Shown here: positions 34,102 through 48,430 of the stretch, one piece after another
Position numbering within the stretch: position 1 is the stretch's first letter
Layout: every line of letters starts with the position of its first letter
Made by a program: the position numbers and the translations under genes
DNA from: an uncultured Christensenella sp.
Lineage (GTDB): Bacteria > Bacillota > Clostridia > Christensenellales > UBA3700
Assembly (NCBI GenBank): GCA_949284695.1
Contig: CASDWJ010000010.1
Coordinates: forward strand, 1-56,064
DNA length: 56,064 nucleotides
Direction of reading: 5' to 3'
The notes under the pieces: generated by a model
Databases searched by the model: none
What the model saw: the letters and a program-made list of their open reading frames with translations, nothing else
What the model was told of the DNA's origin: nothing

Positions 34102-34815
34102 TCAGACCGTGGGAGGATCACCCTCCGCGCGTTTGCCCGCTATGACGACCCCGTCACACTCGGAGCGCCCGTTGCCCTGCGCGTTCTTGCGTTCTTCAGA
34201 CGCGACGTAGCCGCCTTTTTTGAGTATAGGCTGAAGTCTCGCATAGATCACGTAAGTGATAAGAGAATTGAGCACGATCCACAGCGGTTGCTGTATCGCT
34301 TTGGCAAGCATCATCTGAAAATAAGGTTCTTTGACTCCCCAGCCCTCGCCTATTATGACCTTGGCAAGCGTATACGGATAAATACTGTAAAGGCTTGCCG
34401 CTTCGTACTCTCCTACGGGAACGATCAAAAGGCTGTTGACTTCTCCTATCACCGTGAGAGTCAGCGTGCAGACGACGAACGACGTCGCCGCAGTTGCAAG
34501 CAGTTTGTATACGATCTTCCAATCGGTGTATCTGCCGTAGCAACCCGCGATAAGCGCCATAATGCCGTTGCTGACCGATATCATTACCGAATACGGTCCC
34601 GTAGGGAAAAAGATCCCCGGGATAAGGTCGGCGATAAACGCGACCGCAAACCCCTGCCACGGTCCGAGAATGAATCCCGAAAGGTAACAAAAGAGATAAA
34701 CCATGCTTATCCTGCCGAGATAAGTGCCAAACGACTGAAATGAACAAAGATTTAACACCACACCGAGGGCGATAAAAATTGCCATATCAGCTATTTTCTG
34801 TGTCCTGCTTCTCAT
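34102..34815 (-). CDS. folT: ECF transporter S component for folate
   Basis: 237 residues with about six membrane segments. Binds the vitamin outside the cell and delivers it with the shared EcfAA'T module (not in this window). S-component features: IADMAIFIALGVVLNL, FILGPWQGFAVAFIADLIPG, FFPTGPYSVMISVSNGIMALI. Specificity for folates is supported by the tetrahydrofolate riboswitch in its leader. SD AAGGAGGA. The last ~30 residues form a charged tail. Monocistronic. Confidence 0.92.
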   Translation of the reverse strand: MRSRTQKIADMAIFIALGVVLNLCSFQSFGTYLGRISMVYLFCYLSGFILGPWQGFAVAFIADLIPGIFFPTGPYSVMISVSNGIMALIAGCYGRYTDWKIVYKLLATAATSFVVCTLTLTVIGEVNSLLIVPVGEYEAASLYSIYPYTLAKVIIGEGWGVKEPYFQMMLAKAIQQPLWIVLNSLITYVIYARLQPILKKGGYVASEERKNAQGNGRSECDGVVIAGKRAEGDPPTV

Positions 34816-35113: not shown

Positions 35114-35794
35114 ATGCTGACAGTATTTACCAGAGCGATAATCATATACGTATTTCTGCTGATAGCCATGCGGCTTATGGGCAAAAAGCAACTGGGCGAA
35201 CTTCAGCCCTTCGAGTTCGCGATCACGCTTATCGTCGCGGAACTCGCCTGCATACCGATGTCCGACACGCAGGTGCCCGTTCTGTACGGATTAGTGCCGA
35301 TATTCACGCTGTTCATCATAGAATTCATAGTCACGAAAGCGGTCAAACATTCTCTGAGGATCCGCAACCTCATCAACGGCAAACCCGTGATAGTGATGAA
35401 CCCGCAGGGGATAGACTACAAGGCGATATCCTCTCTCGACATGACGGTCAGCGACCTTATGGAAGCGCTGAGAGGTGGAGGCTGTTTTTCGCCCGCAGAG
35501 GTACAGTACGCGATCGCAGAGACCAACGGAGATATCTCGATAGTAAAAAAAGAAAGCGGGCAAGGCGCGCGCGAAAAACTTCCCTACACGCTGATATGCG
35601 AGGGCAAGACGATGAGCAACAACATAAAAAAGGCGGATATGTCCGAAAAGAAAATATACGCGCTGTTGAGACGCAGACGACTGCGCGCGAAGGACGTGCT
35701 CCTTCTGACGGCGGAGAGCGGCGGAGACTATTATCTGCAACCCATAAATTCCGCTTGCGAAACGGGAAGCGCAAAGGAGCTTGAAAATGAATAA
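35114..35794 (+). CDS. DUF421 (YetF/YcaP-like) membrane protein
   Basis: 226 residues. Three N-terminal membrane segments, with the family's RLMGKKQLGELQPFEF and the cytoplasmic YetF-type domain (NGKPVIVMNPQGIDYKAI, MTVSDLMEALR). The function of the family is not settled; it is seen with spore or stress genes in Firmicutes. No clear SD. Overlaps the DUF4363 gene by 8 bp. Confidence 0.92.
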   Translation: MLTVFTRAIIIYVFLLIAMRLMGKKQLGELQPFEFAITLIVAELACIPMSDTQVPVLYGLVPIFTLFIIEFIVTKAVKHSLRIRNLINGKPVIVMNPQGIDYKAISSLDMTVSDLMEALRGGGCFSPAEVQYAIAETNGDISIVKKESGQGAREKLPYTLICEGKTMSNNIKKADMSEKKIYALLRRRRLRAKDVLLLTAESGGDYYLQPINSACETGSAKELENE

Positions 35795-36167
35795 GATAAT
35801 CCTCGCCGTCGTGCTCGCCGTAGTGATACTCACGCTCGGAATTTGCGAGCAGGTGTTCATAAAAAGCTCTTTTGACGATCTGAAAAACGACTGCGCAAAG
35901 ATACAGGAGCTTCTGCTTTCAGGCGATTACGACAAGGCTCTTGAAATGACCGAACACGTCGAAAACGACTGGAGAAAAGAACGCGACCTGCTCGAGTTCG
36001 CCTGCCCCAACACGGACATCAAAGACATCGCCAAAGAGATAGGAGAACTCAAAGGCTCCCAGATAGCCGAAATGTACGACGACTCGATCACTCGTTGCGA
36101 AGTCATAATGGCTATGGCTGAAAACTCCAAAAATCTGCTTTCCTACAAATGGAAAAACGTGCTGTAG
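35787..36167 (+). CDS. DUF4363 family protein
   Basis: 126 residues. One N-terminal membrane anchor, then a helical extracytoplasmic domain (DYDKALEMTEHVENDW, EIGELKGSQIAEMY). Common partner of DUF421 proteins in Clostridia. The ATG has AAGGAG at 8-nt spacing; a TTG two codons earlier is less likely. Function unknown. Confidence 0.88.
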   Translation: MNKIILAVVLAVVILTLGICEQVFIKSSFDDLKNDCAKIQELLLSGDYDKALEMTEHVENDWRKERDLLEFACPNTDIKDIAKEIGELKGSQIAEMYDDSITRCEVIMAMAENSKNLLSYKWKNVL

Positions 36168-36173
36168 GCACAA

Positions 36174-36199
36174 GGAGCGCAAACTTATGCGCTCTTTTT
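36174..36199 (+). terminator. Terminator of the DUF421-DUF4363 operon
   Basis: GAGCGCA/TGCGCTC hairpin with five T. Confidence 0.82.
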
Positions 36200-36236
36200 C
36201 TTTTCTTGCTGAAAACCGAGAACTTTATCGCAGTCG

Positions 36237-36351
36237 GCAAAAAAACAAGGTCGTCCGACGGACGACCCCGAGTGTCGATTTTCGGGCTGCCTGTTCAGCC
36301 TTGCTGCCGCTGCTATGGCGGTGCCAGAATCAGGTTTGTTTTCAACACTTC
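36237..36351 (-). ncRNA. Candidate small structured RNA downstream of uvrA
   Basis: A ~115-nt transcript is predicted from a consensus promoter 36358-36386 to a strong terminator (GGTCGTCC-GTC-GGACGACC, then T run). Internal hairpins: CCGC/GCGG, GGCTG-AACAGG-CAGCC and CCCGA/TCGGG. No ORF of note and no match to the SRP RNA, 6S, tmRNA or RNase P motifs that I know. It is on the same strand as uvrA, starting 69 bp beyond its stop. Confidence 0.65.
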
Positions 36352-36357
36352 ACAGAT

Positions 36358-36386
36358 ATTATAACCAGTCGTTGAACCTTTGTCAA
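36358..36386 (-). promoter_or_regulatory. Consensus promoter of the candidate small RNA
   Basis: TTGACA, 17-nt spacer, TATAAT on the minus strand: identical to the sigma-70/sigma-A consensus. No gene start follows it. Confidence 0.88.
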
Positions 36387-36419
36387 CGGATTTCTGTTAA
36401 AATATCGGCTTTCCCGTTT

Positions 36420-39239
36420 TTATTGCATTCCGAGTTTTTGTCTCAGATATTGCCCCGTATAGCTTGCTGGATTTTCCGCGACCTGCTCCGGAGTGCCTTC
36501 GGCTATCACGGTGCCGCCCGCGTCTCCGCCTTCGGGACCCAGATCTATTATATGATCTGCGACCTTGATCACGTCGAGGTTGTGCTCGATGACGACCACG
36601 GTATTGCCTCCCTCGACAAAGCGTTGCAATATAGAGATCAGTTTCTTGACGTCCGCGCTGTGCAGACCCGTCGTCGGCTCGTCGAGAATATATATCGTCT
36701 TGCCCGTACTGCGCTTGGAAAGTTCTGTTGCGAGTTTTACGCGTTGCGCCTCGCCGCCCGACAAAGTCGTTGCGGGCTGACCCAGTTTGATATACGAAAG
36801 TCCGACGTCGTCGAGAGTCTTGATCTTGTTGTATATCTGAGGTATGTTCCTGAAGAACTCGCACGCTTCGCCGACCGTCATTTCGAGCACGTCGTAAATG
36901 CTCTTTCCTTTGTATTTGACCTGCAGGGTCTCGCGGTTGTATCTCTTGCCGCCGCAGACTTCGCAGGGCACGTATACGTCTGAGAGGAAGTGCATTTCTA
37001 TTTTGATTATGCCGTCGCCCTGACAGTTCTCGCATCTGCCGCCCTTGACGTTGAAGCTGAAGCGCCCCGACTGGTATCCTCTCGCCTGCGCCTCCGGCGT
37101 CTTTGCGAAAAGCTCTCTGATATTGGTGAACACGCCCGTATACGTCGCGGGATTCGAACGCGGAGTCCTGCCTATAGGGCTCTGATCGATCTGTATCACC
37201 TTGTCGAGGTTTTCTATGCCGTCAATGCCGTCGCAATCCGAATACCCCTCTCTTGCGCCGTTGAGTCTCGCGGCGAGAACGGGATAGAGAATCTCGTTGA
37301 TAAGACTGCTCTTGCCGCTGCCCGACACGCCCGTCACGGCGATGAATTTGCCGAGAGGCAGGGTCACGTCGATGCCTTTGAGGTTGTTCTTTCTCGCGCC
37401 GTGTATGACGAGAGACCTGCCGTTGCCTTCGCGCCGCGTAGCGGGCACTTCTATCTTTTCTCTGCCCGCAAGATATGCGCCCGTTATCGATTTTTCGCAC
37501 GCCATGACCTCGTCGGGAGTGCCTGAGACCACGACTTCGCCGCCGTGCACGCCCGCGCCCGGTCCGATGTCTACAATATAATCCGCCTTCTCCATCGTCT
37601 CCTCGTCGTGCTCCACGACTATCAGCGTATTGCCGAGATCGCGCAACCTGGTTAGGGTTTCGAGAAGTCTGGAATTATCGCGCTGATGCAGACCGATACT
37701 CGGCTCGTCGAGGATGTAGAGGACGCCCATAAGACCGCTTCCTATCTGCGTGGCGAGCCTTATTCTCTGCGCTTCTCCGCCCGACAGCGTACCCGCCGCG
37801 CGCGACAACGTCAGATATGCAAGACCCACGTTTTTGAGAAAACCAAGTCTCGCGTTGATCTCCTTGAGTATCTGCGCGCCTATCTTCGCGTCCTTATCCG
37901 ACAGTTGCAGACCCGCGAAAAACGCAAGGCATTTGTCTATCGACAGATTGCAGAGTTCGGATATATTCAGACCGCCGACGGTAACGGCGAGCGCTTCTTT
38001 TCTCAGTCTCTTGCCGTGGCAGACATCACACGGCACCTGAGTCATATACCTCTCGAGATCTGCCTTTACGTTGACCGAAGAAGTCTCGTTGTATCTTCTC
38101 TGCAAATTGTTGATCACGCCTTCGAACTTTCTCTTGAACACGCCGTGGAAGGTCGCGCTGTCGTAAGTCACCTCGATGTCGGAGCCGTCGCCGTAAAGCA
38201 ATATCTGCTTTATGTTTTCGGGCAGATCCTTATACGGAGTGTCGAGGCTGAAGCCGTACTTTTTCGCAAGCGACACGAGCGCCTGGCGGTTGACCTTGCA
38301 AGAATCCATGATATACCAGCCCGAAGCGTCGAGCGCGCCTTCGTTGACCGACTTGTCGCCTTTGATGACTTTTGCGGGGTCGATCCTCGAAGTGAATCCG
38401 AGACCAGAACACTTGGGGCACGCGCCGAACGGGCTGTTGAAACTGAACAGTCTCGGCGTCAGCTCCTCTATGCTGACGTCGCAGTCGGGGCAGGCATAAA
38501 GGGTGGAATAGAGCGTCTTTTTGCCGTCCGTCTCCACTTCGACGAGCCCGCCGGCGAGCTTGAGCGCCGTCTCTAAGCTGTCGGTCAGACGTCTCGACAG
38601 GTCCTCTTTCATCACCAGTCTGTCGACCACGACTCCTATCTCGTGCTTGATATTCTTCTCAAGGCTGATCTCCTCGTCGAGCGTATAGTCGTTGCCGTCC
38701 ACTATGACGCGGACGTATCCGTTTTTCTTGAGTTGCTCGAGCTGTTTGGAGAACTCGCCCTTTCTTCCTCTGACGACGGGCGCAATTATACGCAGTTTCG
38801 CGCCTTTCTGCGCCGTCATGACTTTGTCTGCGATCTGATCGACAGACTGCCGTTCTATCTTCTTGCCGCACTTGGGGCAATGTACCTCGCCTATCCTCGC
38901 GTAAAGAAGTCTCAGATAGTCGTATATCTCGGTCACCGTGCCCACTGTCGAACGCGGGTTGTTGGAAGTGGTCTTCTGATCTATCGATATTGCGGGAGAA
39001 AGCCCGTCTATGCGGTCGACGTCGGGCTTGTCCATCTGCCCGAGGAACTGGCGAGCATACGAAGAAAGACTCTCCATATACCTGCGCTGACCCTCTGCAA
39101 AGATCGTGTCGAACGCGAGCGACGATTTGCCCGAACCGCTCAGTCCGGTAAAAACGACCAGCTTGTTGCGGGGTATCGTGACGTCGATATTCCTGAGGTT
39201 GTGCACCCTCGCGCCTTTTACGAAAATATCCTCTCTCAT
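36420..39239 (-). CDS. uvrA: Excinuclease ABC subunit A
   Basis: 939 residues. Damage-sensing ATPase of nucleotide excision repair. Two ABC modules with Walker [10 protein letters not shown] (residues ~33-41) and [10 protein letters not shown] (~640), two ABC signatures ([24 protein letters not shown]), and zinc-binding cysteines ([29 protein letters not shown]). Overlaps uvrB by 4 bp. Confidence 0.98.
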
Positions 39240-46963: not shown

Positions 46964-46992
46964 TTGACAAAGTCGGATAAAATTCTTATAAT
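46964..46992 (+). promoter_or_regulatory. Promoter of glyS
   Basis: Consensus TTGACA, 17-nt spacer, TATAAT; start near 46999. Confidence 0.9.
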
Positions 46993-47029: not shown

Positions 47030-47044
47030 TTGAGGAGCTTATAT

Positions 47045-48430
47045 ATGGCAGAACTCACTATGGACAAACTGGTCGCCCTTTGCAAAAGCAGAGGCTTTAT
47101 TTTCGCCGGCAGCGAAATTTACGGCGGCCTTGCCAACACCTGGGATTACGGTCCCCTCGGCGTAGAACTCAAGAACAACGTAAAACGCGCCTGGTGGAAA
47201 AAATTCATACAGGAAAATCCGCTCAACACGGGTCTCGACTGCGCTATTCTGATGAACCCCAACGTATGGGTCGCAAGCGGTCACCTCGGCGGCTTCAGCG
47301 ATCCTCTCATGGACTGCAAGAGCTGCAAATCGCGTCACCGCGCCGACAACCTCGTCGAGGATTACATGAAGCGCAAGGGCATCGAAGGCAGCATCGCAGG
47401 CTGGACCAACGAACAGCTTGAAAAATACATCGTCGACAACAAGATCCCCTGCCCAGTCTGCGGCAAGAGCGACTTCACGGGTATCAGACAGTTCAACCTG
47501 ATGTTCAAGACTTTCCAGGGCGTTACCGAGGACAGCGCGAACACCGTGTATCTGCGCCCCGAAACCGCGCAGGGCATTTTCGTCAACTTCCTCAACGTAC
47601 AGCGCTCCGCGCGCATGAAAGTTCCGTTCGGTATAGGTCAGATCGGCAAGAGCTTCCGCAACGAGATCACTCCCGGCAACTTCACTTTCCGTACCCGCGA
47701 GTTCGAGCAGATGGAGCTTGAATTTTTCTGCAAACCCGGCACCGACCTCGAGTGGTTCGCTTATTGGAAAGACTTCTGCAAGAAGTGGCTCCTCGACCTC
47801 GGCATGGACGAGACCAGACTCAAACTGCGTGACCACGACAAGGACGAGCTGTGCTTCTACTCCACCGCCACGACCGACTTCGAGTTCAGATTCCCGTTCG
47901 GCTGGGGAGAGCTCTGGGGCGTTGCCGACCGTACCGACTACGATCTCAAACAGCACGTCAAGGTCAGCGGTAAAAACATGGAATATACAGACCCCGTCAC
48001 GGGCGAAAAATATATCCCCTACGTCATCGAGCCTTCGCTCGGCGCAGACAGAATGGTGCTTGCGTTCCTCTGCAACGCTTACGACGAAGAACTCGTCGAC
48101 GGCGAGACACGCGTAGTCCTTCGTCTGCACCACGCGCTCTCTCCTTACAAGGTCGCCGTTCTGCCGTTGCAGAAAAAAGCGCTCGGTGAAAAGTCGGACG
48201 AGATCTACCGCGCGCTCTGCAAGAAGTTCTCTGCAACTTACGACGAAGCGGGAAGCATAGGCAAGAGATACCGCCGTCAGGACGAGATCGGCACTCCTTA
48301 TTGCGTGACCGTCGACTTCGAGACGCTCGAAAACAACACCGTTACGGTCAGAGAGCGCGACAGCATGGCGCAGGTCAGGATAAATATCGACGACCTCGAG
48401 AAGTACCTCTCGGACAACCTTCAGTATTGA
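47045..48430 (+). CDS. glyS: Glycyl-tRNA synthetase, homodimeric type
   Basis: 461 residues. Class II synthetase charging tRNA-Gly. Single-chain alpha2 type: [20 protein letters not shown] near the start, zinc-type cysteines ([13 protein letters not shown]), motif 2 region [16 protein letters not shown], and motif 3 with [16 protein letters not shown], followed by an anticodon-binding domain (VAVLPLQ). Start follows GAGGAG; five extra upstream codons lack an SD. Confidence 0.97.

Follow-up and report, generated by a model that had tools for sequence, protein, structure and literature searches.

Among the RNAs with which the one described here can be compared, CsrB/RsmY and 6S are protein-titrating RNAs. 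A second group is that of the type III antitoxin RNAs, for which PMC4627078 describes tandem pseudoknot repeats placed before a terminator, with a repeat of 36 nt in ToxI and of 45 nt in CptI, CptI being derived from two repeats and having an L1 of just one base. A third comprises OLE, ROOL and GOLLD, which form homo-oligomers in which, according to PMC12286853, equivalent units are joined by tertiary contacts (including kissing loops) that are backed by covariation.

The candidate RNA locus considered here lies on the minus strand (36386-36239) of a 56,064-nucleotide stretch of DNA from an uncultured Christensenella sp., the whole of which is called the window in what follows; a DNA search found the RNA in 8 of 59 genomes, its own being counted, and these are referred to as the carriers. 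With the type III antitoxins it would share a tandem arrangement of H-type pseudoknots ahead of a terminator; one such pseudoknot per repeat, a criterion for that class, would fit the loop-strand covariation in those of the RNAs that have two copies. It differs from ToxI and CptI in the length of the module (57-58 nt), in an additional hairpin, A, in closure by a stem, P1, and in the proposed pairing of each loop with the next copy. That it might be an orphan antitoxin of this kind, its tandem pseudoknot repeats binding an endoribonuclease, is suggested by the common plan of such repeats ahead of a terminator (PMC4627078) and by its patchy distribution; however, a search confined to one toxin family of Pfam (ToxN_toxin, PF13958) matched 2 of the 45 genomes, neither of them one of the eight carriers, and directly downstream in the window there is no toxin gene but a convergent DUF4363 gene, so that this reading seems to us very improbable. 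With OLE, ROOL and GOLLD the likeness is in covariation-supported contacts between equivalent units, but those are large RNAs that meet between molecules, whereas here two modules would meet within one short RNA. With CsrB/RsmY and 6S it has in common that it is a stand-alone RNA, and putatively that it repeats a binding module, the number of copies of which might determine its capacity; it differs from the former in that no CsrA (PF02599) was matched in any of the eight carriers (draft genomes, in a search whose control rings in 3 of 14), and from the latter in that there is no RF00013 match at the locus.

Over the window as a whole, Rfam 15 finds no family at the RNA locus, the only match being to a THF riboswitch elsewhere (RF01831, 34884-34980 on the minus strand, 70.8 bits), which has an 11-of-12 promoter at 35015-34987 and stands upstream of ORF 34102-34815, presumably a component of an ECF-type transporter. 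When 36100-36500 was searched at E values up to 10, STnc70 (16.4 bits), BTE (14.1 bits) and STnc320 (13.2 bits) appeared, all far below threshold, and the loci of the eight carriers, searched at E values up to 5, yielded four THF riboswitches, together with asX2 and ctRNA_p42d under threshold. Matches resembling 6S were seen elsewhere in 15 of 45 genomes of the family, at 27.6-39.6 bits and thus all under the Rfam cut-off of 46.4; such candidates occur in two of the eight carriers, the other six, own genome included, having none. A diverged form of 6S may deserve a model of its own in this family. In the open-access literature, as covered by sequence and by titles and the openings of abstracts, no description of the present RNA was found. 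It represents a conserved, stand-alone, structured RNA family without a match in Rfam 15, and its tandem, loop-swapping architecture is unusual.

Promoter and terminator

The RNA gene is placed between uvrA (ORF 36420-39239), on the downstream side of which it lies, and the DUF4363 gene (35781-36167, assigned by Pfam), which faces it. Two elements that a sequence-only reading of this DNA had pointed out are there as described: a perfect promoter of sigma-A type on the minus strand (36386-36358), comprising TTGACA at 36386-36381 and TATAAT at 36363-36358 with a spacer of 17, i.e. 12 of 12 consensus positions, and a strong intrinsic terminator (36239-36270, minus strand), consisting of an 11-pair stem at 36270-36246 followed by 7 T. 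In all eight carriers the promoter matches at 11-12 of 12 positions, with a spacer of 16-18, and a terminator is likewise found in all of them. Taking the 5' end from the promoter, the predicted transcript would be about 110 nt long (roughly 36239-36351, minus strand). Judged by eye, the terminator stem is AGGTCRYC/GRYGACCT-like across genera, with changes on both sides, and is more alike than a mere terminator needs. The 115-nt stretch has a fold of -40.1 kcal/mol (z -2.78, equalled by 1 of 200 shuffles), a figure that includes the terminator hairpin.

The same reading had regarded a perfect promoter that feeds a short, structured and terminated transcript as the signature of an abundant small RNA. 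The perfect pattern, at spacers of 16-18, occurs three times in the window (shuffle mean 0.01), and since each of the other two occurrences stands ahead of a long ORF, such a promoter does not by itself identify a small-RNA gene. These two are found at 2622-2651 on the minus strand, before ORF 1393-2622, which we take to encode an RtcB-type protein, and at 46964-46992 on the plus strand, before ORF 47030-48430, presumably a glycyl-tRNA synthetase.

The module and its proposed interlocking pairing

Inside the predicted transcript a closing stem, P1, is formed by a 5' strand AGUGUUGA (36342-36349, minus strand, as are all the elements that follow) and a 3' strand UCGACACU (36271-36278), and encloses a conserved module of about 57 nt (model R1; 36281-36339), present here in one copy. 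The module stands in tandem, with a period of 57-58 nt, in five of the eight carriers and singly in three (G000, G005 and G023), although short-read assembly could in principle collapse repeats; in all there are 13 modules across the 8 RNAs. Each is made up of strand a (CCUG, 36331-36334), which is one side of a proposed pseudoknot helix identified from pairing counts and covariation between loop and strand, hairpin A (CCGC-CAUAGCA-GCGG, 36307-36321) and hairpin B (GGCUG-AACAGG-CAGCC, 36285-36300), whose loop carries the CAGG (36293-36290) that would pair with strand a and covaries with it. A stretch GCAGYGGCAGCAAGGCUG is nearly invariant in the modules, and the linker CAGCAA between the two hairpins is invariant in all 13. 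Neither the tandem copies in relatives nor the closing stem nor the pseudoknot had been part of the sequence-only reading.

The structure was assessed on an alignment of 8 rows (7 distinct), of which 5 are composites that bring together the first strand a and the last hairpin B of a two-copy RNA. On its 7 distinct rows P1, both hairpins and the loop-strand helix taken together have 94.5% of 146 cells paired, and five pairs are changed on both sides, a number reached by 3 of 500 shuffles; two of these pairs belong to P1, one to hairpin A and two to the loop-strand helix. Covariation stands at 0.243, as against 0.146 +/- 0.024 for shuffled alignments (none of 500 reaching it) and 0.093 at most with slid partners, whereas a simple count of pair types is not above that of shuffles (374 of 500).

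Taken singly, the elements are rather unequal. P1 covaries, imperfectly, with 85.5% of its cells paired, and RNAalifold recovers 7 of its pairs; hairpin A, also recovered, has a lone compensatory change (G-C to A-U, in the second copy of G012), such as 37 of 500 shuffles reach. The stem of hairpin B, which had been proposed from the sequence as GGCTG/CAGCC, compensatory changes being named as what would support it, is indeed present in all 13 modules, but shows no variation in any of them and thus gains no compensatory support. A second proposed stem, CCCGA/TCGGG, can be written in the window sequence and was rejected: it exists in only one of the eight RNAs and clashes with the conserved 3' strand of P1 and with the terminator, both of which it overlaps. 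For the alignment of the closing region RNAalifold proposes P1 and both hairpins, A being extended by two pairs; covariation contributes no more than -0.31 kcal/mol to the result. When pseudoknots are disallowed, the lowest-energy fold lies below the proposed nested part by 2.0 kcal/mol in G000, 6.9 in G005 (where only 5 pairs of P1 were counted) and 4.8 in G023, and in the window transcript the pair probabilities are 0.26 for hairpin A, about 0.6 for hairpin B and 0.84-1.0 for P1. A long alternative hairpin, seen in this folding, was also considered and rejected: it pairs 95.3% of its cells, but has just one two-sided change and covariation at the level of shuffles (162 of 500 reach it), and the very change in G012 that is compensatory in hairpin A disrupts pair 21-51 of the alternative.

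The remaining question is which strand a each loop would pair with. If every hairpin-B loop is set against strand a of its own copy, the 13 modules give 44 Watson-Crick pairs, 5 G-U pairs and 3 mismatches out of 52, and it was on account of these mismatches that same-copy pairing was rejected; if it is set against strand a of the next copy, the last loop being returned to the first strand, the corresponding figures are 50, 2 and 0. In G014 and G030 copy 1 has CCUA as strand a and copy 2 has UAGG in its loop, and in G019 these are CCCG and CGGG. These three are the only informative two-copy RNAs, two of them (G014 and G030) sharing one change, and the swapped pattern would arise with odds of 1 in 8 if each RNA could go either way. 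There is thus good but limited evidence, from these sequence comparisons, that in two-copy RNAs the loop of each copy pairs with strand a of the other, and the RNA as a whole seems to be a closed ring composed of one pseudoknot or of two. Read as an H-type pseudoknot, hairpin B and the next strand a would provide a 5-pair stem, a 2-nt loop, a 4-pair stem and a loop of 7-8 nt. Cofolding of two window transcripts gives -92.3, as against -80.2 for two singles, a difference that the self-complementary terminator may explain and to which no weight is given.

Could the modules instead encode a small protein? One of the three frames is open in all 13 (KPDxGTAxAAAARLNRQP), but a start codon (ATG, GTG or TTG) in that frame occurs in just 2 of the 13 and is not conserved, in G012 and G030, where the period is 58 nt, the frame is lost from one copy to the next, and the 22 variable columns are spread over all three codon positions (9, 5 and 8), so that a coding role is hard to credit at all. 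The locus accordingly displays what is expected of a bacterial stand-alone small RNA, i.e. a promoter and a terminator of its own, conserved structure and no convincing coding potential, for a transcript that is predicted.

Distribution and genomic neighbourhood

A covariance model made from the 13 modules finds the same eight carriers among 46 genomes of the family, with E values from 8e-21 to 3e-17. They comprise 4 of 13 genomes in the genus of the window, 3 of 6 in genus g3 and 1 of 17 in genus g4, with none of 10 in three further genera, and wider sampling at the level of order, class and phylum (396, 391 and 398 genomes, overlapping and including its own) gave no carriers outside the family. 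Weak matches of the model in G010, G067, G068 and G013 (family) and in G445 and G472 (class) fall within open frames longer than 200 codons; they were taken as chance and left out of the carrier counts. An exact-pattern scan of a collection of 84,980 species, which diverged forms could escape, gave 7 stretches, labelled Christensenellaceae (four), Christensenella sp., Ca. Caccalectryoclostridium and Ca. Alloclostridium. In viral contigs a 24-letter pattern had no match; a 15-base pattern had at least 120, from which no inference is drawn. So far as has been seen, then, the RNA family is one of certain gut Clostridia, confined to three genera of one Christensenellales-related family, and the fact that close relatives differ in having it (4 of the 13 genomes of the genus do) implies that it is dispensable.

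Within the genus all four copies occupy one site, between uvrA and a convergent gene, which is DUF4363 by Pfam in the window and looks to be the same in the other three. However, of the 12 uvrA 3' flanks examined in the genus, 8 are without the RNA (the thirteenth genome, G011, was outside this count, having only a distant uvrA match, best E 1.3e-8), and a uvrA tree leaves loss and gain undecided, two changes being sufficient. In the other four carriers the RNA is away from uvrA: in G030 it is flanked by a GerAC-like gene on one side and an esterase-like gene on the other, in G014 it is close to yqfD, and in G019 and G023 to Fic genes, the Pfam assignments of its neighbours having covered 8 chosen genes. 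The adjacency to uvrA looks incidental, and the link with uvrBA and the control of DNA damage that the sequence-only reading had raised is not supported. Loss in relatives that retain uvrA, which it had named as evidence against the RNA, is what is seen, but counts against the link to uvrA and not against the RNA. What that reading proposed, a structured RNA gene that is uncharacterised and has a promoter to itself, finds support in the conservation of promoter, core, P1 and terminator in eight genomes of three genera, as well as in the lack of any Rfam match.

That the neighbours differ in g3 and g4 argues for action in trans. A cis-acting leader or riboswitch (or a 3' end of uvrA) might be thought of, given that an aptamer joined to its terminator would look much like a compact pseudoknot with a terminator behind it, and that the next downstream genes are co-directional in G019 and G023; but the downstream gene is convergent in the window, G012 and G030, the neighbours vary between genera, and all eight carriers have the RNA's own promoter. 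A cis role is unlikely, and to us barely conceivable.

The mean identity of modules is almost the same between genera (0.91, 52 pairs) as within a genus (0.92, 21 pairs), which, together with the difference in sites between genera and repeats noticed by eye around the copy in G014, would be consistent with a mobile or selfish cassette of promoter, RNA and terminator that has spread horizontally, its conservation reflecting transfer. Against this, no encoded protein and no shared ends were seen, the compensatory changes show selection on structure, and all four copies in the genus have one common site, so that transfer as the whole explanation appears improbable; transfer and a function of the RNA are in any case compatible. 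In G014 (L018, 2781-4760) a long intergenic stretch surrounds the RNA, with palindromic TGTCCACTWWAGTGGACA sites and GC-rich blocks visible by eye, and is possibly a mobile element. Beside the RNA in G019 (L016, 1401-2080) there are an ORF of 61 aa, preceded by a promoter-like site, and a truncated ORF of P-loop type, which we take to be a zeta-toxin remnant, followed by the Fic gene.

Possible function

The reading we prefer, with moderate confidence, is that of a stand-alone noncoding RNA, most likely acting in trans, in which a ring of one or two pseudoknots held by P1 serves as a scaffold or decoy that presents a conserved surface to a protein. What comparison supports is a promoter and a terminator of its own, a covarying P1 that would hold the ends together around one or two modules of strand a, hairpin A and hairpin B, and contact between every hairpin-B loop and strand a of the module after it, the last returning to the first, which would give a ring with n = 1 or 2. 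The near-invariant GCAGYGGCAGCAAGGCUG and hairpin B would then be the surface shown to the protein, the copy number of the module would set valency, and the RNA would act through its compact fold, as scaffold or decoy, and not by linear antisense pairing. This is our best guess because the whole fold is conserved, copy number varies, there is no match to Hfq or CsrA, and the 18-mer has no extra site beyond chance, although the pattern of conservation fits protein binding and RNA binding alike.

The main rival is a trans-encoded base-pairing sRNA, whose conserved unpaired stretches (such as CAGCAA or the loop of hairpin A) would pair with mRNAs. Short RNAs that stand alone and end in a terminator often act by base-pairing, and the invariance of the CAGCAA linker in every module would suit it. 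On the other hand, Hfq (PF17209) was not matched in any of 45 family genomes searched (drafts, 70-98% complete, the control ringing in 5 of 14), a point tempered by the fact that Hfq-independent pairing is common in Gram-positives. Moreover, when up to 2 mismatches are allowed, the invariant 18-mer is found at 3 places in the eight carriers apart from the RNA itself, as many as for its reversed control, a comparison that covers long near-exact matches only, and strand a, because it co-varies with the hairpin-B loop, seems to have a structural role. We consider base-pairing possible, then, but on balance unlikely. Returning to the scaffold or decoy, a more far-reaching form of it, which we put forward as doubtful, is that of a possibly horizontally moving family of rings of interlocked pseudoknots in which two-copy RNAs would swap loops and one-copy RNAs would homodimerise, providing a two-fold symmetric scaffold in bacteria without detectable Hfq or CsrA.

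What is added is a structured RNA family without a match in Rfam 15, in which tandem modules, joined by pairing of loop to next module, are set within one closing stem, an architecture through which modular tertiary structure in RNA becomes testable on a small scale. Since one-copy and two-copy versions occur naturally, it can be asked directly whether copy number sets valency or single copies dimerise. For the biology of these bacteria, it offers a small-RNA gene that near relatives either have or lack at a single fixed site, in organisms without an Hfq match.
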